IMG/VR virus record: IMGVR_UViG_3300009370_000076
Coordinates: 1 to 37,552 of that record
Strand: one strand, 5' to 3'
From: a virus
Length of the DNA stretch: 37,552 nucleotides
In this document: positions 993-22,617 of the stretch, piece after piece
How positions within the stretch are numbered: position 1 is the stretch's first letter
Layout: the number at the start of each line of letters is the position of its first letter
Notes under the pieces: model-generated
What the model was told of the DNA's origin: nothing
The model's database searches: none
Seen by the model: the letters and a program-made list of their open reading frames with translations, nothing else
Program-made: the position numbers and the translations under genes

Positions 993-1003
993 AACTTATT
1001 CCT
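949..1003 (-). repeat. Leader-module direct repeat, copy A
   Basis: Fifty-five bases covering the ribosome-binding site, start codon and first 14-15 codons of the gene at 633-992. They match 1294-1348 with only two differences by my alignment. Identity extends through synonymous third positions and the non-coding AGGAATAA, then stops. Confidence 0.9.
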
Positions 1004-1337
1004 CCCTCGTGTCGGCCATTAATTGCTGAATCTTGTCTGCGAGCCTCTCGCGTTGTGACACTGGCGTTTCTTTTCCGGAAATACGCGATACCCGCACATC
1101 GCCACTTGACAGAGCGTGGACGGCCGCGATTAAATTAATCCAATGCTGCTCTTCTGATGTTTGTGGAGACTCTGTACTCTGGCGGCCGTCGAAAGAGTCG
1201 CTAAACGGAGTTCCGCCCAGGTCAACGTCGCCACCCTCCTCCTCACTCCAGTCCCATTTCCCAGTGTTGAAAGCTTCAGAAATAGATTCAAGCTCTTCTT
1301 TAATAATTTTTCTTAATTGAGATTTTGTAAGTTTCAT
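996..1337 (-). CDS. Small acidic protein with KLTKSQLRKIIKEE leader module
   Basis: A 113-aa protein sharing its first 15 residues, and nearly all of the DNA coding for them, with the downstream neighbour at 633-992. The leader continues to ELESISEA, where ISE followed by A resembles a T4-type prohead protease site (I/L-x-E). The body is acidic and rich in Gly, Asp, Ser and Trp near residues 25-50, then helical. The start follows AAGGAATAAATT, the same ribosome-binding context as its neighbour. It begins 3 bases after the stop of the zinc-ribbon gene. Function unknown; probably an internal virion protein if the leader is a targeting signal. Confidence 0.82.
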   Translation of the reverse strand: MKLTKSQLRKIIKEELESISEAFNTGKWDWSEEEGGDVDLGGTPFSDSFDGRQSTESPQTSEEQHWINLIAAVHALSSGDVRVSRISGKETPVSQRERLADKIQQLMADTREE

Positions 1338-2759: not shown

Positions 2760-2775
2760 CTATAAATAGTATTAT
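2760..2775 (-). promoter_or_regulatory. Conserved element upstream of the holin-like gene (possible promoter)
   Basis: The plus-strand sequence CTATAAATAGTATTAT also occurs at 10593-10608. Read in the direction of transcription it is ATAATACTATTTATAG, ending 17 bases before the start codon and followed by an AGGAG. It overlaps the stop codon of the Mre11-Rad50 gene. The core TATTTATA is the reverse complement of the T4 late promoter box TATAAATA. Promoter function is inferred from repetition and constant position. Confidence 0.45.
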
Positions 2776-5700
2776 TGTTGAATAAATGCGTAACCATTTT
2801 TCTTGTCAATTGTGATTTGCATGTCCACGCAGTCCTTGAGACTATCCAAATGAGAGATAAGCAAGACCGTCTTGAAATATGATCGAATAAGGTCCAGAAT
2901 ATCAATGAAACCCTGCATGTTTTCCTCATCCAAGGCTGTACCCGGCTCATCGAGAATGAAGATGTCCGACTTTGGCAGAGATGAAACACTCAAAAGGGAG
3001 AGGCGGATGGCCATGGCTGCAATCGTCTTCTCGGCGCCCGAGCCCATTTCGAGGGGGCGTGGCTCGTGCCTCGGGTGTTTGATAAAAATATCGAGGCGCT
3101 TTCCATCATCCTCAAAAAATACCTCAAACTCAACGATATTTGCCAAGATCTTGGCTATTTCCTCATTGATGACCGGCAATTTGCGCCTGATAACGTCGTA
3201 GGCAATTCCATTTGGGTGCATACAGCGCATATAGAGGTCGTATGCTGAAAATTCCTCCTGTAAGTCCAAGAATTCATCTCGTTGTGTTGTCAGGTTATCA
3301 ACCTTTTGTTCCAGAGACCCGACTGTCTTATATAATGAGAGCATCGAAGTGTTACATTTCGTTATGCTACCTTGGAGATTTTGAGATTTGATCTTTAGAG
3401 TTCTCAAATTTTTTGATAAGTTCTCAAGATTTTCAATAACGTCCTTGTTGAGTTCATATTCTGAAACCTTTTCCTCTAGGCTTTCTATTTCTTTCATCAG
3501 AGACTTAATTAAGGTAGAATTTTTCTCTATTTTCAGTCCGTAGTTCGTAATCTTGTTTGATAGTTCATTTTTCTTATCAAGAAGAGAGTTATATTTGCTG
3601 ATATGATCTTCCACTTCGTCTGGATTGATTTCCTGGATATCATCACTTATATCCTCTATTTGTTCGGAGAGGTTTTCAACCTCACGCTCATTGAGGGGGA
3701 TTGTTGCCTTGGAAACATACGCATCTTTAATGAACTTACACTTTGGATATGATGTTCCGCATGGAATTCCACTCAAGAGTTTTTCCTTGTTTCTATTTCT
3801 CTTAAGCTCTTCTTCTTCGGAGGACAATAAGTTTTCCAGTGTCGCGATTTGATCGAGGAGACTATTCGCTCTCTCTTGCTTATCGAATAAGGATTTTACA
3901 TCAAAATCTCCCACAAATTCAATAACTTTTTGGTATGTGTCCTTATCTTGATCCCTACTAAGATAAAATTCCTCATTTTGATCTGAAATGGAAATCAATT
4001 GATTCTTTTTATCACTCAATTCTTGTTGAACTTTTAAAACATCGATGATTTCAGCGGGAATTGATTTTATTTTTTCATTAATTTCAGATATTTGAGACTC
4101 GCAGCCTCCCATACTGGCTTTCAGGCTCTCGCATGCTGATTTTTTCTTTTCGAGTTTGTTGTTCGCGGTTTCCAAGTCGTCTTGAGCTTCAAGAATCTCG
4201 CTATTATAGTCCCTACCTTCAGACTTTCGAAGGGCGCCTTTTGTATCCGCCGCATCATCTTTGGACAGCTTGAACTTTCTCTCAAAAAACTCAAGATCAA
4301 GAAACTTTGCAAGGATCTCTTTTCTTTTTGTTGACCCCTCCTTGATAAAGGTAAGAGAATCCATCTGAGAGGCCATGGAAGAATATAGGAAGTCATCCAG
4401 GGTTCCAAAAACTTTGCGAATGTTTTTGTCGGTCTGGTTTCTCGTAAGTCCGTTTAGGCTCTCGGTGTCTCCAAAATTGGGATCGTACATGTTGAATTCG
4501 ACGTTGGTCTTTGCTTCCTGTGTTGCTTCTCCCTTCAATTTTCTAGTATATTTCTCCGAGGTTCTATCGATGTAATAATCAGTGTCTCCTATGGAAATTT
4601 TTACCTTGCCCTTTCCGAAATCCCTGTTCTGATTGATGATATTGAGGTTCTTTCGATCGTTCTTGGAGGTTGAATTAAAAATTGTGTACAGAATTGAATC
4701 GATAATGCTGGATTTACCTGAGAAGTTCTTTCCGAAGATACCAACGATTCCCTCTAGGTTATCAAAATTGATACTGTTTTCTTCACCATAATTAAAGAGG
4801 TTGTCCCACTCCACAGAACGAAGGCGCCAATTTATATTTCTTGATACCTCTTCATTCTCTTCTGCAATTTTATTGTATTTTAGATTGAGATCTAGAACTC
4901 TTTTCATCAGCTCGTCATCTACTTCAAAATCTTTCAGATATTCCTTGATGAGTTCTTCTTGAATCTCTATATTTCTCAGATCTTCCGTTTCAAGGCCGTC
5001 TGTAATATTTTGAACATTTCCCCGCTGGCCAGTGGCGCGGTTCAAAAAAGTAATGCTTTCTGGCTTAAAGCGTCGTTTGGCGACCTCTGTGGCCTTTCTC
5101 ATAACGTCTATTGGCAAATTGTTGTTAGAAACGAGGCGAAGGCGCGCCTCTTTCGGAACAACCTTGGATGCATTCCTCGGCATTTTGCCTGTGGATGTTA
5201 ATTCAATTGTTACAAAAGGCCTCGGATTTTTAAGCTCAATATGCCGACAAGTAAAGTTTTCTTTATCTTGGATGTCCCACAATAAAAATCCTTTATCGTT
5301 TGTTTCCCCATGATTTTGTTGAATTGTTGAACCACAGTACCTAATCCTCCCCTCTTCGTCTAATTTTTGATTTGTTTTGTGAATGTCGCCAAGAAAGCCA
5401 TAGTCATGGCCTTCGAAGATTTCAATTGGATGTTCGCCGTGTGTCATGACCCAGCCAGTATCAGTTTTTACTCCAGATACGGATCCATGATATAGGGCGA
5501 TGTTGATTTTGCTCGGATCGGATGGTTCAACCCAGCCTTCTTCGTCGAAAACAGATAGCACGTTGAGGGCCACATTTGCCCCTAGAAGCGTTTCGCCGGA
5601 ATTCTTAAGCAAATGTAGGTTTGGGTGCGCCAAAGCGTCAGCAATGGGCGTTAAGGCGTCCTGGCGGTTGCTATTTTTCAAGTTTCCATCGTGATTTCCG

Positions 5701-5930
5701 AGAATAATGTAGGTTGGAGCAATATTAGCTAGATTGCTAAAGAAAGCAGAACACATCTCCACAAATTCTGGACTGATCTGTGTCTTTGTGTGTGCGATGT
5801 CGCCGCAATGAATGATATAGTCTGGCTTCTCCTTTCTCAAAATGTCGTACAGCTTGTCAAAAACAATCCTGTACTCGTAATGATATTTTAAATTTTTAAT
5901 GTGGGTATCTGCTATGTGGGCAAACTTCAA
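2772..5930 (-). CDS. Fused Mre11-type nuclease and Rad50-type ATPase (gp47-gp46 fusion)
   Basis: A 1052-aa protein that joins two proteins normally made separately. Residues 1-240 are a calcineurin-type phosphoesterase: ADTH (D8, H10), CGDIAH (D44), GNHD (N79, H80, D81), YHGS (H148) and GDIH (H184), as in Mre11/SbcD/T4 gp47. From about 370 it is a Rad50/SbcC/T4 gp46-type ATPase: Walker A GKNFSGKSS at 401-408, long coiled coils about 560-890 around a hook CGTSYPKC (C724, C731), signature GSGAEKT at 963-969, Walker B FILDEP at 991-996 and H1027. The family processes DNA ends for recombination-dependent replication. The start is TTG at 5930 with AGGAG six bases upstream. The frame is continuous with no frameshift sign. 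It lies 9 bases after the primase stop. Confidence 0.95.
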   Translation of the reverse strand: MKFAHIADTHIKNLKYHYEYRIVFDKLYDILRKEKPDYIIHCGDIAHTKTQISPEFVEMCSAFFSNLANIAPTYIILGNHDGNLKNSNRQDALTPIADALAHPNLHLLKNSGETLLGANVALNVLSVFDEEGWVEPSDPSKINIALYHGSVSGVKTDTGWVMTHGEHPIEIFEGHDYGFLGDIHKTNQKLDEEGRIRYCGSTIQQNHGETNDKGFLLWDIQDKENFTCRHIELKNPRPFVTIELTSTGKMPRNASKVVPKEARLRLVSNNNLPIDVMRKATEVAKRRFKPESITFLNRATGQRGNVQNITDGLETEDLRNIEIQEELIKEYLKDFEVDDELMKRVLDLNLKYNKIAEENEEVSRNINWRLRSVEWDNLFNYGEENSINFDNLEGIVGIFGKNFSGKSSIIDSILYTIFNSTSKNDRKNLNIINQNRDFGKGKVKISIGDTDYYIDRTSEKYTRKLKGEATQEAKTNVEFNMYDPNFGDTESLNGLTRNQTDKNIRKVFGTLDDFLYSSMASQMDSLTFIKEGSTKRKEILAKFLDLEFFERKFKLSKDDAADTKGALRKSEGRDYNSEILEAQDDLETANNKLEKKKSACESLKASMGGCESQISEINEKIKSIPAEIIDVLKVQQELSDKKNQLISISDQNEEFYLSRDQDKDTYQKVIEFVGDFDVKSLFDKQERANSLLDQIATLENLLSSEEEELKRNRNKEKLLSGIPCGTSYPKCKFIKDAYVSKATIPLNEREVENLSEQIEDISDDIQEINPDEVEDHISKYNSLLDKKNELSNKITNYGLKIEKNSTLIKSLMKEIESLEEKVSEYELNKDVIENLENLSKNLRTLKIKSQNLQGSITKCNTSMLSLYKTVGSLEQKVDNLTTQRDEFLDLQEEFSAYDLYMRCMHPNGIAYDVIRRKLPVINEEIAKILANIVEFEVFFEDDGKRLDIFIKHPRHEPRPLEMGSGAEKTIAAMAIRLSLLSVSSLPKSDIFILDEPGTALDEENMQGFIDILDLIRSYFKTVLLISHLDSLKDCVDMQITIDKKNGYAFIQQ

Positions 5931-5942
5931 ACTTTTCTCCTA
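5931..5942 (-). promoter_or_regulatory. Strong ribosome-binding site deciding a TTG start
   Basis: In the coding direction TAGGAGAAAAGT precedes TTG at 5930-5928. The TAG is the primase stop codon, so the site overlaps the end of the upstream gene. No in-frame ATG lies near, and the TTG yields the expected N-terminus MKFAHIADTH of the phosphoesterase fold. Confidence 0.8.
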
Positions 5943-6863
5943 TAAATCAAAAATTGCAGATACTAAAGAATCCTCTTCTCTAATAACTGGCGCATCTTGA
6001 CTTAGCTTTTCTACTTCTTCTTTGGACATATCGCCTACGTCCCTCTCATCATCGTATTGTAATTCTCGAACTTCGATGCCGTACTTAAAAAACAATCTTT
6101 TGATGTTATTGGCCTTATATTTTGCATCTGGGTCTAATGCCAACAAAACCGGCGTATTGTTCTGGACTATCTTTTTGAACAGTCTAGATGTTTCTCTAAT
6201 TGTTGAGCCCAAAATAGGAACTGCGTTATCTGCCTTGACAGCATCAAACGCGCCTTCAACAATTGTGACCTCTTTATCAAAATCAACATACAATTCATTG
6301 AATACTATGTCGCGACTGACTGGAGGATTTTTATATCTTCTATACTCGTCTGTAAATGTTCTTGCTATGAAATAATTTAAGTCTCCGTTTTCGTTAAATG
6401 ATGGGATTATGATCCTTCCCTTGAATGGACCATCGGAACAAAAGCCAATTTTCCATTTTAGGATGTCTTTTCTGCTAATACCTCGTTTTTCAAGGTACTG
6501 TAGGGGTACCCTAAAATGAACATTTCCAGTTAAAGTGTGAAAATTTGGAGGCATTTCGATGATTTGCTCGAAATTGTCATCTTCCTCTTCCTCAAAGAGA
6601 TTTCCAAAAGCATTTAGATCTGTTTCCTCACCAGAAAATGCTTTCCAAGACTCTCGATCTTTTTGTGATCCGAACTTGCGAACAAGTCGATAAAGATTTC
6701 TTCCTTTTTCGTCGCAAACCCAGCATTTATAAACACCACGTTGGATGTTGACAGAGAATTTCCTCTTGTGATGCTTACAAAACGGACATTGAAACAAATG
6801 CTCGTTGTTTGACTTGTAAGACTTTCCAAGGAAACCTGTTATAATCGAAAGCTTTTCGTCCAT
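5940..6863 (-). CDS. DnaG-type DNA primase
   Basis: A 307-aa protein with an N-terminal zinc-binding domain (CPFC at 26-29 and CWVC at 47-50) and a C-terminal TOPRIM domain: VEGAFDAVKA (E203, D207) and LALDPDAK (D244, D246). GRIIIPSFNENGDLNYFIAR at about 149-168 matches the start of the DnaG catalytic core. It makes RNA primers for lagging-strand synthesis. It is short compared with bacterial DnaG (about 580 aa) and lacks the C-terminal helicase-binding region, which is usual for phage versions; no helicase is present in the window. The ATG at 6863 has no clear Shine-Dalgarno, only an AT-rich 21-base gap after the RuvC-like gene. Confidence 0.93.
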   Translation of the reverse strand: MDEKLSIITGFLGKSYKSNNEHLFQCPFCKHHKRKFSVNIQRGVYKCWVCDEKGRNLYRLVRKFGSQKDRESWKAFSGEETDLNAFGNLFEEEEDDNFEQIIEMPPNFHTLTGNVHFRVPLQYLEKRGISRKDILKWKIGFCSDGPFKGRIIIPSFNENGDLNYFIARTFTDEYRRYKNPPVSRDIVFNELYVDFDKEVTIVEGAFDAVKADNAVPILGSTIRETSRLFKKIVQNNTPVLLALDPDAKYKANNIKRLFFKYGIEVRELQYDDERDVGDMSKEEVEKLSQDAPVIREEDSLVSAIFDL

Positions 6864-6884
6864 AATAATAATATAACATAAATG

Positions 6885-7400
6885 TTACTGCGTGTCAAGG
6901 ATTATTTTTGATCCTGCGCGAGCAACGACAATCGCATCAGCAATATCGTAGCAGTACTTCTGGACGTTACCGTGTCTGGTGTAAATTATTTCGAACTCTT
7001 CGCTTTCAATAAAATGTTCCATGACAACTTCCTTGGCTTTCTTACCTTTTGCAACCTTTATTCCGCACTTTGACCTTGCTGAAATGGGAGTCACATAGTT
7101 TGGTTCCATATCGAAGAGTTGATAGCACTGCCAGGATACTATTCCGTTAAACCTTTGGAGGACTGACATCGTTTTTGCCGTTGAGCCTCCTCTGCGGAAG
7201 AACATGAGGGCTTGCTCGATAAAGATGTGCTCGATATTGTGATTCTTCTTTATTTCTTTTAGGGAATCTTCTACTTTTTTTGCTTTTTCAAAGAAGTTTC
7301 CAACTTTTCGCAAGTCAATGTACTCCGTATGAACAATCTTGTTATCGTTCATAACGCATACTCCGACTATGCTTGTGCTTATGTCTAGTCCTAATATCAT
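6885..7400 (-). CDS. RuvC-like Holliday junction resolvase / RNase H-fold nuclease
   Basis: A 171-aa protein beginning MILGLDISTSIVGVCV. The RuvC-type acidic set is visible: D6 in GLDIST, E62 in FIEQAL, and D152/D155 in YDIADAIVVA. Length fits RuvC (about 170 aa). Such enzymes cut four-way DNA junctions; in phages they resolve replication branches before packaging. The ATG overlaps the stop of the tail gene 7397-8575 as ATGA, so it is translationally coupled to a virion gene, and primase and Mre11-Rad50 follow. The overall sequence is divergent from cellular RuvC, so another RNase H-fold role cannot be excluded. Confidence 0.85.
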   Translation of the reverse strand: MILGLDISTSIVGVCVMNDNKIVHTEYIDLRKVGNFFEKAKKVEDSLKEIKKNHNIEHIFIEQALMFFRRGGSTAKTMSVLQRFNGIVSWQCYQLFDMEPNYVTPISARSKCGIKVAKGKKAKEVVMEHFIESEEFEIIYTRHGNVQKYCYDIADAIVVARAGSKIILDTQ

Positions 7401-17099: not shown

Positions 17100-18095
17100 C
17101 TATTCATCCTCACACACGGGGCCGGTTGCGCCGGCGGCATAAGGACTAATAGTAAGCGGAGACGTAATTACATCCTCGCATTCTAGGGGGGTGTCGACAT
17201 AGATTCCTCTTGATTTTACCTTGCTTATTCCCTCACACATATCTGACTTATTTATCTTCGAATCAGCATATAGGTCAAAAAAGAATTCTACAAAAGTGTC
17301 ATCGATTTCCACCTCTTCGGGATCTTCATCGTTTATGACGAGAAGGCCATCTACAATGTTAGATTTTTTTTCTATGAAGGAGAGCGGCATATAGGACCCG
17401 TCAGAGGGCTCCACATAGAAAACTTCTACTTCAAAGTTTTCTTTATCAAATGTGACCCCATCTTCCTCTACCATTAACAATAAATTTTTATTTCCATCTT
17501 TATAGGATATTTGTATTGAAGAGCCGTCTCGAAAAGTTATGCCAGAATCTTCCAGGTCAAAATCTTGTGCAACATTATTGATTGTTTCATTTTCGTCCAG
17601 AACTTTCGTAACATACGCCACGTCCAAATTAACTTGCGGAATTTGTAAATCCTGGTATGTCCCCGTCAGAAGAAATGACGCGCTCAATATCTCCCCCTCT
17701 AGAAGAGTGAGTCTCCAACTCGGCGCGCTGACTGATTGAAGATCCGAGTTCCCCAGCGAATTAACCAGTGAAAATTCTTTTTCTGCTGTTGGTTGTACTC
17801 TTATTCTTTCGGTTTCTGGGATTGTTAGGTCATCACGAGGATCTATATAGACCGAAAAATTACTCTCTATGCCGGAGAAAACATGTTGTGTTCTGTTTTG
17901 TATTGTATTCTCTTGTATTCTCGGCTCGATATCATTTTGGACCTCAGTGATGCCCGCATATTCACCATCATAAAGGATATTATCATCAAAAAATTCATAG
18001 TATACGGGAGTTAAGCGACCCGTTGACAAGAGTTGTTTACCAAATTGTGTTAATTTGATATCCAATACCTCTTCTTTTTTATTGAAAAATGTCAT
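17100..18095 (-). CDS. Virion protein with N-terminal LTQFGKQLLSTG module
   Basis: A 331-aa acidic protein. The first 50 residues (MTFFNKKEEVLDIKLTQFGK, then LLSTGRLTPVYYEFFDDNIL) parallel the start of 9615-10574: a leading aliphatic strand, LT..G..LL..G, then an aromatic strand and an acidic DD..LY. This appears to be the same module, diverged. The rest is strongly acidic (Glu, Asp) and beta-like, with two cysteines near the C-terminus (MCEGISK, PLECEDV) and a third in the last residues. The ATG overlaps the stop of the LamG gene as ATGA. Probable tail component; exact role unknown. Confidence 0.78.
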   Translation of the reverse strand: MTFFNKKEEVLDIKLTQFGKQLLSTGRLTPVYYEFFDDNILYDGEYAGITEVQNDIEPRIQENTIQNRTQHVFSGIESNFSVYIDPRDDLTIPETERIRVQPTAEKEFSLVNSLGNSDLQSVSAPSWRLTLLEGEILSASFLLTGTYQDLQIPQVNLDVAYVTKVLDENETINNVAQDFDLEDSGITFRDGSSIQISYKDGNKNLLLMVEEDGVTFDKENFEVEVFYVEPSDGSYMPLSFIEKKSNIVDGLLVINDEDPEEVEIDDTFVEFFFDLYADSKINKSDMCEGISKVKSRGIYVDTPLECEDVITSPLTISPYAAGATGPVCEDE

Positions 18096-21000
18096 TTATT
18101 TCTTTTCCTTTTCGGACCTTTTCCTCTTTTCGCAACTTTTAATGGGTTTTCTCTGGCTTCCGAGGCGCGCTGATCTACACTACCATCTTGTAATCCCTTT
18201 CCAAATCCAATTTTGGCATCCATGTTAGCAAACTCGACCAAGGAGAAAAAATCATAAGGCCAATTATAACTAACTGGAAATTGTTCTGCCTTTGGACCAG
18301 ATATTGATGATACCTTACTAAAATAGTTAGTATTTGCTCTTTGTTTTACCTTAAAGACCATCCACTGAAGACCATCTCTTATGGGATCGTTTTCACCATT
18401 TCCAAAAGATCCCATAAGCTCATTTGCGTAAAGTTTGTGAGAAATTTCAACCTCTTTTCTGTCAAATTTCTTTCCTCTATCCGGAGGAGCGACATTTTGC
18501 CACATGTATGCAAGATCTGTTTGTGAAAATTGATATTCAAACTCGAAAATGTACATAGAAAATGGCGTAACTTTCCCAAGATTATTGACAAAATCCATAT
18601 TGGGGGGAAGAACAAATTTCTTCATCTTGCTGACCATATCCTTTATTGTATCTGAGATTTTATCTGACGTATCCTCATCTCTATCTAGTTGTGATGACGC
18701 GGCTGATGACGCTGCGCCGGCTGCGGCCCTGACCTTTGCGGCCTTGATATCTGAGTCATTACTGAAAAGGCCCTCATTGTTCTCTATTCCCTTAAGGGCA
18801 GCTTTGACGGCGAGACCCGCCTGTGATACTGCCTTATCCGACGATATAGTGTTCAAATCTCCAAGGGCGCGCCTTATTACATCTTCTGGGATTTCGAAGA
18901 ATTTCTTTTCTCCGTCCTCCAAAATAAAGGGAACAGCGACGATAGCTTCAGACACCGTAAGACTTTCTGCGGTGTTTCCCAGCTTTTTTGATTCCTCGAA
19001 GCCCACTAGCGCGCTTAAATCTTCAAAATTGCTATTTTGGTATACAGACAAATCTATACCAGATATCAATTCTGTTTTGAATGACAAACCACCGGGTTCC
19101 ACTCTTTCTGGGTCTACATAACCTCTCGTGGTCCTCCAGTTTTCCGGGATGGAGTCTACCTCAATATAGACTCCCTTATCTGTCTCTATTGTCCCAAATT
19201 GATGCCACATTCCCCGTGGAACTGATTCCGATCCATTGGTTGGGATGATTAAGGTATTGCTAGCACTAGTGAGGGGCCTTATTGATGTCTCGGAATTAAA
19301 ATTATAATGAGGGGTTTCAAACTTGGGTTCAATAATCCAGCGATCGCCGTCCTTTCCGAGAATATTAAAGGATGCATCCAGTTGCATTGCATATGCATTT
19401 GCGTAAGAAACGTTCATTGGAGAGCTATAATCAAGCTTTGCTGGATTCTCATTTGTACTCCAAATTGCTTGAGCGCGGTTTTTCCCATAGAGGGCCCCAG
19501 ATACAGAACTAGTTACCCCATTCAATAGCGGGTTTGTATCAATTCCCCACAAATTGACTGTTGCCTCGGAAAGTATCTCATCTATTGTAACTTTGCCGCT
19601 CTTTTTTGCCTTCCAAACTATGTCTGCCCAAGATTCCCTACCATAATATGGCGGCGTAAAGGATGGATTTATTCCCATCAAACTATCTGAAGGATATAAA
19701 TCAGTATTATAATATATATTTTCAAGTGCGTTTGGCTTCACTTTATTTTGAAATCCCAGAAAACCGGTGCCGGCGACGGGTGGACCAAAGGCGGAGGGGC
19801 GTGAATACATTGTAAAAGTTTCTCTCAAGCCGGCTGCGTCACCGGTTAAATTGCGAGGATCTTGGTTGATTTCATAAGTAGTGGCCGATGCATTGTGTGC
19901 GTAGGTTCTCCACATTCGAGGCTTATTCATAGTTCTTCTTAATTTAACCCTCATTCCATAAGATGTTCCAGATTCGGCTGTTAAAAATTCGCTTTCTGGC
20001 CGGCTAGATAACTGAGTAAACTCTCCGTTTGGTAAGAAAAATTCCGGAATTGCTGCGAGATAATTATGCATCATTCTTTTATATAATATATCTCCTTCTC
20101 CAGTCCATCTTGCTTGGATATCTATGGACGAACTTGGGTGCGGCTCTAAATCATAAATTTCAATACCGGCGACATATTTTTCCGGCTCGACAGTAGCCTC
20201 AAAGGGAATTCTTAAATCCCAGCTGGCCGTAAATAAAGATCCAGTATCACTATATCTCTTTTGTGTCCCAAGGGCATAATAATCTGTATAATATTTTTCG
20301 AGGCCGCTTTTATATCCTTGATAATTAATCACCTGATATGAACTCGTATAGACCGGGAAATCTACCGCCAAGCCTGATTTAATCGTGTTATAAACGATTC
20401 CGGGTCGGAAAAAGGGCGTCAAAAAAGGCCTGAATCTGGCATTCGTCAGGTTTGAATCAAGGCCAGCGTATTCCATAAAATCACCATAAGATTTTGAAAA
20501 CTGATTTGCAATCTGAAGACTCCTTTCGGATGGGAAAAATCCATCATAAGGAAGGAATTTCATTAGCGCCTTGCACTTCAAAGTAATTGTTGTTGGATCC
20601 GCAAAGCCTTTATGATCCTGCTTGATAACTGAAAAGTGTCTCAAGAAATCTGAATTTGAAAATGTTTCATAGAAAGCGTCCTCGGAACTATTACTTGGAA
20701 TATCCGAAGTTGAGCTTGTCGAGGAACCTTTTATGGCAAACTGGGAAGGATTTGCAGACAAGAAATCGCCCCTTTGTTTGTTAAAATAAAATTCAATTTG
20801 ATCACTTACCAAAAATTCAGGAATTACTGAATATTCTTTATTTTTTAAACGCATATTGACATTATAGTCGTCGTAAGTGTCGTATGATGGTGATTGTGAA
20901 GAACTTATCCAAGAATTATTCTCGACATACCCTGCGAGGGGGCCCGATTCCCATTCGGCTGAGCCAGCGCATGTCTGGATGTTCCCAAGGGGATTTGCAA

Positions 21001-22600
21001 AGGCGCGTTGAGATTTTGGGGCGGACGTATTATTCGGCGTGGGATATAAGTCAAGCCATGCAGCAATGGAGGTGCTAGTTTCTGGTATTGGCATCGTAAG
21101 TGTTCTGTCTTCGTAATCATCAGAAGATGGAAAAGTAGATTTTGGCACTGTCCACCCAAAGTGTGTAACTGAAAAGACAGATCCAAGTGTATGTTTTCTG
21201 TTATAAATAGGGGCGGCTATTAAATCACTCTTGTTTGGGGCGTCGTACCCAGAATTACAGGGCCCCGAATTGAAAAAGTCCATGTTGATGTCGGCGACTC
21301 CAACTAAACCATCTGCGAGATCTCGAACGGGATAACCATCCCCCTTTGGATAGATTGTATTGCCGTCGAGATCTGGCCAAAAATAGGGTACCGCGTTTTG
21401 TAGGCGGGCATCCAAAGTGAGGGGTCCAGGGAGCCCCGCCATGTATGGAATATTAGGATTCCAAGAAGAGGAGCCGGCCGTGTCTGGGCCGCCGGGTTCG
21501 CCTTCGGGGCCCAGAAGCGTGGGGACAGGGGATAATTGCCCCATTCTATAATATCCCACTGGCCTTTGAGCAGTGTTATTAAACACGGGCATTAAGGACA
21601 TATCTGGTGGGCAGCCATCGTTATACATGAGGGCGGGAAGGTCTGTGTCAAGTGTGTGTAAAGAATAATTGAAAATACTTACCTCGGAAATTCCGCCTTC
21701 GAAGACATTGTTTAAGAAAAACTCATCTGGGCCGGCCGATAGTCCGCTTCCCGTTAGGGTGGAAATATCTGTATTATATGAGGCGTCGTTCCCTATTGCT
21801 CCGGTAGATGGGTGTATTTCTCCATAAAAAGGGCTCTTATCTTCGATCTTGTTGGTGGTCTGGGCACCAATTTCAACAAGTGTACCATTAATATAGAGTT
21901 TTATTCTTTCGGCGTGAGTAGATTCCCTGTCGGGAGCCGTAGCGTCATAACAGCATAAGACGTGGGACCACTCACCTAATGAGATTGACACACTAGAGGT
22001 GGCCTGATCAAGAATATAATTTCCAACCACGGCGTCCTGGTAGAGTACAGTTTGGGTACCGACACGCAAATCGGCGCCGGGTCCTGTGGATGTTCCCGTC
22101 AAATAAAGTTGCACCGAACATGTTCCGGCTGTAGGAGTTAAAGGCCTTGCGTGATCGGCAGATAAAAAGGAAACTATATTATATCTCTTTGAGACGCTAA
22201 ATCCCTGGACACTAATATCTGGTTCTTTGGGGTAAATCCAGGCGGAAATACTGTAAGTATTTGGGAGAGTTCCTGTTACCGCGTTCCCGACTGCATATTC
22301 TGCAAATTCTCTGGCGTACTCCGTTTGTGGACCAGTTGACATATAGTAATTATGTAATCTTGCGCCGAAGCGGAGCGGGACGATTATTGGATATGATTCA
22401 ATATTATTGGTACTGCAAGTCATTCCCCACTCGCTCGTGAAGACAGACGACCCAAAACACTGTGAGTAATCATTTTGAAGTTCTCCCGCTGCTCCATCAT
22501 TGGCATTGGAAGAGTTATATACTGGCGCTGTCGTGAAGTCCTCAACTGCGTCGAGGGCCCACATGCTCTGTGAAACCACATATCCTTGTGAATTAGCCAT
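18092..22600 (-). CDS. Giant LamG-domain virion protein (1502 aa)
   Basis: A concanavalin/LamG-type domain spans about 100-310: SISAWIYP opening strand, EWSHVLCCYDA central strand, IKLYINGTLVEIG hairpin and the closing GGISEVSIFNYSLHTL. LamG folds bind glycans or act as adhesive jelly rolls on phage tails. The long remainder, rich in Asn, Ser, Tyr and Pro, has no recognised fold; an Ala-rich helix (about 1280-1310) comes before a basic tail RGKGPKRKRNK. ATG at 22600 (MANSQGYVV) with GGAGA six bases upstream is preferred to the TTG just before it. It is 17 bases after the other LamG giant. A host-surface-binding or tail-tip role is inferred. Confidence 0.82.
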   Translation of the reverse strand: MANSQGYVVSQSMWALDAVEDFTTAPVYNSSNANDGAAGELQNDYSQCFGSSVFTSEWGMTCSTNNIESYPIIVPLRFGARLHNYYMSTGPQTEYAREFAEYAVGNAVTGTLPNTYSISAWIYPKEPDISVQGFSVSKRYNIVSFLSADHARPLTPTAGTCSVQLYLTGTSTGPGADLRVGTQTVLYQDAVVGNYILDQATSSVSISLGEWSHVLCCYDATAPDRESTHAERIKLYINGTLVEIGAQTTNKIEDKSPFYGEIHPSTGAIGNDASYNTDISTLTGSGLSAGPDEFFLNNVFEGGISEVSIFNYSLHTLDTDLPALMYNDGCPPDMSLMPVFNNTAQRPVGYYRMGQLSPVPTLLGPEGEPGGPDTAGSSSWNPNIPYMAGLPGPLTLDARLQNAVPYFWPDLDGNTIYPKGDGYPVRDLADGLVGVADINMDFFNSGPCNSGYDAPNKSDLIAAPIYNRKHTLGSVFSVTHFGWTVPKSTFPSSDDYEDRTLTMPIPETSTSIAAWLDLYPTPNNTSAPKSQRAFANPLGNIQTCAGSAEWESGPLAGYVENNSWISSSQSPSYDTYDDYNVNMRLKNKEYSVIPEFLVSDQIEFYFNKQRGDFLSANPSQFAIKGSSTSSTSDIPSNSSEDAFYETFSNSDFLRHFSVIKQDHKGFADPTTITLKCKALMKFLPYDGFFPSERSLQIANQFSKSYGDFMEYAGLDSNLTNARFRPFLTPFFRPGIVYNTIKSGLAVDFPVYTSSYQVINYQGYKSGLEKYYTDYYALGTQKRYSDTGSLFTASWDLRIPFEATVEPEKYVAGIEIYDLEPHPSSSIDIQARWTGEGDILYKRMMHNYLAAIPEFFLPNGEFTQLSSRPESEFLTAESGTSYGMRVKLRRTMNKPRMWRTYAHNASATTYEINQDPRNLTGDAAGLRETFTMYSRPSAFGPPVAGTGFLGFQNKVKPNALENIYYNTDLYPSDSLMGINPSFTPPYYGRESWADIVWKAKKSGKVTIDEILSEATVNLWGIDTNPLLNGVTSSVSGALYGKNRAQAIWSTNENPAKLDYSSPMNVSYANAYAMQLDASFNILGKDGDRWIIEPKFETPHYNFNSETSIRPLTSASNTLIIPTNGSESVPRGMWHQFGTIETDKGVYIEVDSIPENWRTTRGYVDPERVEPGGLSFKTELISGIDLSVYQNSNFEDLSALVGFEESKKLGNTAESLTVSEAIVAVPFILEDGEKKFFEIPEDVIRRALGDLNTISSDKAVSQAGLAVKAALKGIENNEGLFSNDSDIKAAKVRAAAGAASSAASSQLDRDEDTSDKISDTIKDMVSKMKKFVLPPNMDFVNNLGKVTPFSMYIFEFEYQFSQTDLAYMWQNVAPPDRGKKFDRKEVEISHKLYANELMGSFGNGENDPIRDGLQWMVFKVKQRANTNYFSKVSSISGPKAEQFPVSYNWPYDFFSLVEFANMDAKIGFGKGLQDGSVDQRASEARENPLKVAKRGKGPKRKRNK

Positions 22601-22617
22601 CAATCATCTCCATTTCT

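Follow-up and report, generated by a model that had tools for sequence, protein, structure and literature searches.

The window, by which we mean the whole 37,552-nucleotide stretch of IMG/VR virus record IMGVR_UViG_3300009370_000076 that was analyzed, contains a gene that is a genuine Mre11-Rad50 fusion of a tailed phage, and the virus that carries it is a marine virus of bacteria that makes the nuclease and the motor as one protein. It is likely that the only Mre11-Rad50 machine detected for this phage is the product of this gene, a single chain that would dimerize, adopt a canonical geometry and function in recombination. Fusions of this kind are already known, both from the many further forms found here and from the analysis of Yoshida, Claverie and Ogata (2011; PMC3175470), which described them in Mimivirus (R555), a Bacillus phage (0305phi8-36), plasmids and marine viral metagenomes. 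The 13 fusions in that study did not form one clade, and aquatic viral homologues were abundant, with phage primase genes nearby (Yoshida et al., 2011; PMC3175470).

The minus strand from position 5930 to 2772 is a single frame of 1052 codons and the plus strand of the same interval contains stops throughout (Table 1). The first-pass annotation had correctly placed one uninterrupted frame at 2772-5930, leaving its strand unstated. A Shine-Dalgarno-like sequence, TATAGGAGAAAAGTTTG, precedes the TTG start codon and overlaps the stop codon with which the upstream primase gene ends. This TTG (window 5928-5930) is retained in most close relatives, with GGAG directly upstream, and a primase-like gene also lies upstream of the fused gene in the relatives L046, L052 and L053.

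Table 1. Positions in the window of the fused gene, its predicted parts and its upstream neighbors
Feature	Position	Strand	Remarks
Fused Mre11/SbcD-Rad50/SbcC gene	2772..5930	(-)	1052 aa; start TTG 5930-5928; stop 2774-2772
Mre11-type calcineurin-like nuclease domain	5226..5930	(-)	residues 1-235; Pfam Metallophos, motif conservation, fold match
Capping domain (~236-300) and helix-loop-helix (321-358)	4857..5225	(-)	ends just before the Rad50 half
Rad50 ATPase lobe I	4293..4832	(-)	residues 367-546; Pfam AAA_23; Walker A 400-407 GKNFSGKS
Antiparallel coiled coil	3219..4292	(-)	arms 547-721 and 732-904; predicted secondary structure
Apex hook CGTSYPKC (C724-x6-C731)	3738..3761	(-)	loop central between the arms
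Rad50 ATPase lobe II	2775..3218	(-)	residues 905-1052; signature 963-969, Walker B 990-995, H1027; Pfam SMC_N
DNA primase (phrog_47)	5940..6863	(-)	adjoins the fused gene on its upstream side
RuvC-like Holliday junction resolvase	6885..7400	(-)	phrog_159, E 1.5e-16

Elsewhere in the window, two adjacent small proteins (633-992 and 996-1337, minus strand) have the N-terminus MKLTKSQLRKIIKEE in common, and a 1503-aa open reading frame with a lectin-like Laminin_G_3 domain (18092-22603, minus strand) lies in a group of very large proteins (1275, 1963 and at least 1764 aa) that are probably tail or baseplate components. Of these three, the 1275-aa protein was scanned and had no family match, and Rfam and tRNA scans of the whole window returned no match.

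Profile searches recognize both halves of the fused protein, with Pfam matches to Metallophos (4e-12, residues 1-154), AAA_23 (1e-10, residues 376-628) and SMC_N (3e-13, best stretch 817-1037), and PHROG matches to SbcC-like (1e-49) and SbcD-like (8e-31) families. The metal-binding motifs of SbcD/Mre11 (D8, H10, D44, N79-H80-D81, H148 and H184) are present, as are all of the SbcC/Rad50 ATPase motifs (Walker A, the SG.E signature S964-G965-A966-E967, Walker B, D-loop and H-loop). The first-pass annotation was right that every nuclease and ATPase motif it named is there, but its positions need adjustment, since Walker A lies at 400-407 (not 401-408) and Walker B at 990-995 (not 991-996). In the alignment of the window clade, positions 182, 184, 402, 405, 406, 964, 965, 967, 968, 994 and 995 are invariant in 115 of 115 rows, and D8, H10, D44, the NHD triplet, H148 and H1027 do not vary among the rows with a residue at the position concerned. 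One of the invariant residues, Asp182, occupies the place where the usual HxH pair has its first His (apparently equivalent to H206 of Pyrococcus), a substitution absent from the first-pass annotation.

Relatives of the protein are numerous in IMG/VR, where a scan with the protein itself recovered 51 loci and a scan with the alignment recovered at least 584 stretches encoding a relative, among 600 listed; nearly all of the best 80 of these ≥584 span the whole query. Among the matches listed, one frame holds the nuclease part as well as both ATPase lobes in 114 relatives, and not one of these 114 shows a split or stop at the nuclease/ATPase junction. The 10 relatives with fewer parts are every one cut by contig ends or N gaps. 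The first-pass annotation had regarded a frameshift or stop between the halves, or close homologues all split there, as fatal to a fusion; the relatives give no such refutation, with a stop or split in 0 of 114. Because the window is a 37.5 kb virus fragment, copy number was checked in relatives and not in the complete genome to which it belongs. Ten relatives, 139-204 kb in size, each contain exactly one SbcD-type and one SbcC-type match, and the two matches share an open frame. The fused chain is thus the sole Mre11-Rad50 detected in these ten genomes, nine of which also encode a RecA homologue.

A cellular origin was considered and rejected. A scan of cellular genomes gave only a handful of matches: the phage gene itself within metagenome-assembled genomes (L125, L126, L127 and L128), and short archaeal matches at the nuclease motif region. 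In L127 (CP070664, a metagenome-assembled WOR-3 genome), N runs flank a phage segment that contains the primase, the resolvase and the fused gene within a 2.8 Mb ‘chromosome’, which is probably a chimeric scaffold. Plasmid sequences gave no match to the fused gene at E 1e-5. In the 484-kb phage LR756508 (L053, 5001-9154), the Mre11 part is interrupted right after GDIHK by ~0.9 kb that carries a 305-aa open reading frame resembling a homing-endonuclease-type insertion; the interruption has no Rfam match and is possibly an intron or intein.

The window protein shares with the fusions of Yoshida et al. (2011) the presence of both domains on one chain, nuclease first, and it retains between its halves the capping and helix-loop-helix region together with linker residues. 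Single-gene forms also occur in public phage records, including Microcystis phage Mel-JY01, Vibrio phages 1.031.O and Va2, Rhizobium phage RHph_Y65, E. coli phage IME392, Acinetobacter phage Ab1-TPeters, Thermus phage phiLo, Cobetia phage Carin-5, Xanthomonas phage XacN1 and a 735-kb huge phage (LR756501). Where annotated, they are mostly named after one half or generically. The distant forms from Vibrio, Acinetobacter and Cobetia phages have weak support from the window-clade profile and were assigned by motifs and annotation as well. Split forms were found in T4, a T5-like Vibrio phage, Enterococcus and Staphylococcus Herelleviridae, cyanophage S-PRM1 and an Erwinia jumbo phage.

The first-pass annotation had proposed mapping which lineages have fused and which have split forms, and a 30-taxon tree now provides such a map. 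The window clade (12 taxa, support 100/99) is all-fused and stands apart from a Vibrio/Rhizobium/Thermus group and from XacN1; with the exception of Mel-JY01 and the 735-kb phage, the cultured and huge-phage single-gene forms listed above fall outside it. The fused or split label changes five times on this tree, at least four of these changes being forced by supported branches, in agreement with the earlier report that 13 fusions did not form a single clade (Yoshida et al., 2011).

One of the label changes separates Listeria phage LMTA-57 (L139, 2417-5446), which appears ‘fused’, from its split sister P61 (L157, 1297-4327), the two differing by one missing A in a homopolymer; because of this one-base indel LMTA-57 is not a firm independent fusion, and its fused state may be a sequencing error. 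Yersinia phage YerA41 (L152, 1402-4439) has a third arrangement, in which the nuclease and first ATPase lobe form a chain of 827 aa and the last lobe is a separate protein of 185 aa; its sister, Cobetia phage Carin-5, encodes a single 995-aa chain. The partial genome of Rhizobium phage RHph_TM39 (L146) contains the nuclease and first ATPase lobe twice in tandem (443 aa, and within a protein of 815 aa), reflecting either a duplication or an assembly fault.

The junction between the two halves was analyzed with an AlphaFold2 single-chain model built from 31 rows, which had a mean pLDDT of 81 and a pTM of 0.54, a value that leaves the relative placement of the halves unfixed. Residues 1-298 match known nuclease and capping domains (7dog_B, Z 23.2, rmsd 3.7, 276 aligned; 4tug_E, Z 22.9, to residue 306), and residues 366-1052 match SbcC/Rad50 structures with Z of 24-29 (7yzo_D, Z 29.3, rmsd 3.4, 352 aligned). 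The best viral structure match of the fused protein is a full-length Tupanvirus chain (E 6e-58), and the top viral matches are Tupanvirus and other giant-virus chains. Helices are predicted at residues 321-335 and 339-358, the expected site of the Mre11 C-terminal helix-loop-helix, and in profile comparisons this segment weakly resembles the C-terminal regions of the split Staphylococcus phage and T4 Mre11 proteins (i-Evalue 0.04-0.06). In the model an 8-residue loop (359-366) then links the second helix to strand 1 of Rad50 at residue 367. For the separate Thermotoga maritima complex, the distance between the Mre11 and Rad50 termini was given as ~28 Å and the linker needed was estimated at 9-12 residues, leading to the argument that a fusion with such a linker is compatible with the known arrangement (Yoshida et al., 2011; PMC3175470). 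Eight fully extended residues span ~28 Å, the gap in the separate complex, so that on the model a cis arrangement of the fused chain appears feasible though tight. The first-pass annotation had suggested that fusion fixes a 1:1 ratio of the subunits, which necessarily follows for a single chain, and that it forces a distinct geometry. The latter is neither supported nor required, because the predicted helices are as expected of the usual helix-loop-helix and are followed by a loop close to the 9-12 residues estimated for 28 Å.

As an alternative explanation, an error of sequencing or assembly that merged two separate genes can be dismissed with near certainty for the window clade: such errors can occur, as the missing base in the A run of LMTA-57 illustrates, but 114 intact fused relatives exist and no two-gene version is found within the clade. 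The chain could also be a mere precursor from which cleavage releases an Mre11 and a Rad50 part, and residues 301-311, which lead from the capping domain to the helix-loop-helix, have a pLDDT below 50, as in flexible stretches; this is nonetheless very improbable, given that the single-frame arrangement is kept without exception in the window clade. A trans arrangement, close to the idea in the first-pass annotation, would have the Mre11 helix-loop-helix of one chain dock at the base of its partner's Rad50 coil, producing a domain-swapped obligatory dimer with a geometry unlike that of separate Mre11/Rad50 complexes. The 8-residue loop does fall just below the length estimated for cis, but the reach of eight extended residues plus fraying of helix ends would leave little distortion needed, and we regard the trans arrangement as unlikely.

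The coil apex is the part of the protein that departs from expectation. The two predicted coil arms (547-721 and 732-904) have almost the same length, and the short loop where they meet contains C724 and C731, which identifies this loop as the apex. In the literature the Rad50 apex is a CxxC motif, conserved across all forms of life and viruses. This usual zinc-hook motif is not present at the window apex, which has CGTSYPKC (Cx6C) instead. Across the 115 members of the window clade, three apex types are found: type I (Cx6C in 93 and Cx7C in 6; typically [VI]PCGxxxxxCKFIKDA), type II (CxxC in 12; HEYDPxCxYC[CS]ENxFVKDA) and type III (CxC in 4; DPGFxxGCKCLHEAE), with Cys731 invariant in the alignment. 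The split and distant single-gene proteins examined have a CxxC hook, as do all of the listed cultured and huge-phage single-gene forms, and the CxxC loop of Mel-JY01 has a type II appearance; in YerA41, where the gene is broken in the coil, a motif search found no CxxC. A tblastn search for the type I hook elsewhere found no match even at E 10, which is uninformative given the short, composite 60-aa query. No description of a Cx6C or CxC Rad50 apex was found in the literature covered, which includes few subscription papers, so that this absence is weak evidence. Because the apex is not CxxC, metal bridging cannot be assumed from homology; with its two cysteines and a longer Cx6C loop, the apex probably still holds a shared metal.

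Trees restricted to the nuclease, linker and ATPase segments place seven hook-type changes on a quick tree of 115 members and eight on a careful tree of 45 members, of which six to seven are forced by supported branches (bootstrap ranges of hook changes, 7-7 for type II and 8-8 for type I). In the sister pair L069 (type I) and L079 (type II), head windows are 89-97% identical and the linker segment 75%; central coil windows are only 20-50% identical and the hooks differ. Type II loops of different lineages are 67-89% alike, and the surrounding coil windows are mostly 5-45% alike. Coils also diverge fast when the hook is the same (L059/L072), so these data show that a short cassette has been replaced but do not show why. 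We tentatively suggest that the hook may be a replaceable part, with CxxC, Cx6-7C and CxC swapped at least six times between very similar heads, serving as a pairing-specificity or metal-tuning module. The apex could more specifically be a variable pairing module in which loop swaps and fast coil change keep the protein from dimerizing with that of a co-infecting phage or with the host SbcC, or evade a coil-recognizing host factor. The number of forced switches, the contrast between very similar heads and divergent coils in L069/L079 and the likeness of type II loops across lineages are in keeping with such a module, but relaxed constraint plus recombination would explain them too, the fast coil change of L059/L072 needs no hook switch, and we consider this explanation rather unlikely.

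T4 gp46/47 and SbcCD act in ATP-gated end processing that feeds recombination-dependent replication. By analogy, two fused chains joined at the Mre11 part, at the ATP-closed heads and at the coil apex would be equivalent to the usual 2:2 complex while needing a single gene product, and each Mre11 helix-loop-helix would most likely dock on its own Rad50 coil base in a canonical geometry. ATP-gated nuclease action may then open DNA ends and so supply the phage RecA homologue with 3' single strands. These would feed recombination-dependent replication and repair, in which the adjacent primase and RuvC-type resolvase would also take part. Such a role is supported by the genomic context, with RecA in relatives and a primase gene and a RuvC-type resolvase gene nearby.

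For the most part, the fusion extends the known picture, by adding a large marine phage clade in which the fused form is the only form, and by showing exchange between the fused and the split state across the phage tree. It also means that phage genes labeled ‘coil containing protein’ or ‘SbcC-like’ can encode both subunits, and profile libraries name such genes by one half. The hook result would carry more weight if it holds biochemically, as a natural set of closely similar heads with different hooks would allow a direct test of the purpose of the zinc hook, which has so far relied on mutants and artificial hinge swaps. In addition, a fixed-ratio single-chain complex is a convenient object for structure work.

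Compared with known systems, the window protein resembles T4 gp47/gp46 and SbcD/SbcC in its domains, gene order (in E. coli sbcD precedes sbcC with a 4-base overlap), catalytic motifs and presumed role in end processing and recombination-dependent replication. These systems consist of two proteins with a CxxC hook (CPTC, CPLC), whereas the window encodes one protein with Cx6C, and, unlike T4 gp47 and SbcD, its Mre11 half has Asp for the first His of the HxH pair. Its counterparts among known fusions are R555 and the marine viral homologues, in which the Mre11 half likewise precedes the Rad50 half on one chain. With the marine viral fusions it shares an aquatic viral origin and nearby phage primase genes. 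With R555, known here by description, it differs in length (1052 versus 1351 aa) and in belonging to a tailed phage, but has in common the GDxxH and Asp-for-His206 substitutions described for R555 (Yoshida et al., 2011; PMC3175470), the first of which also occurs in split phage Mre11.
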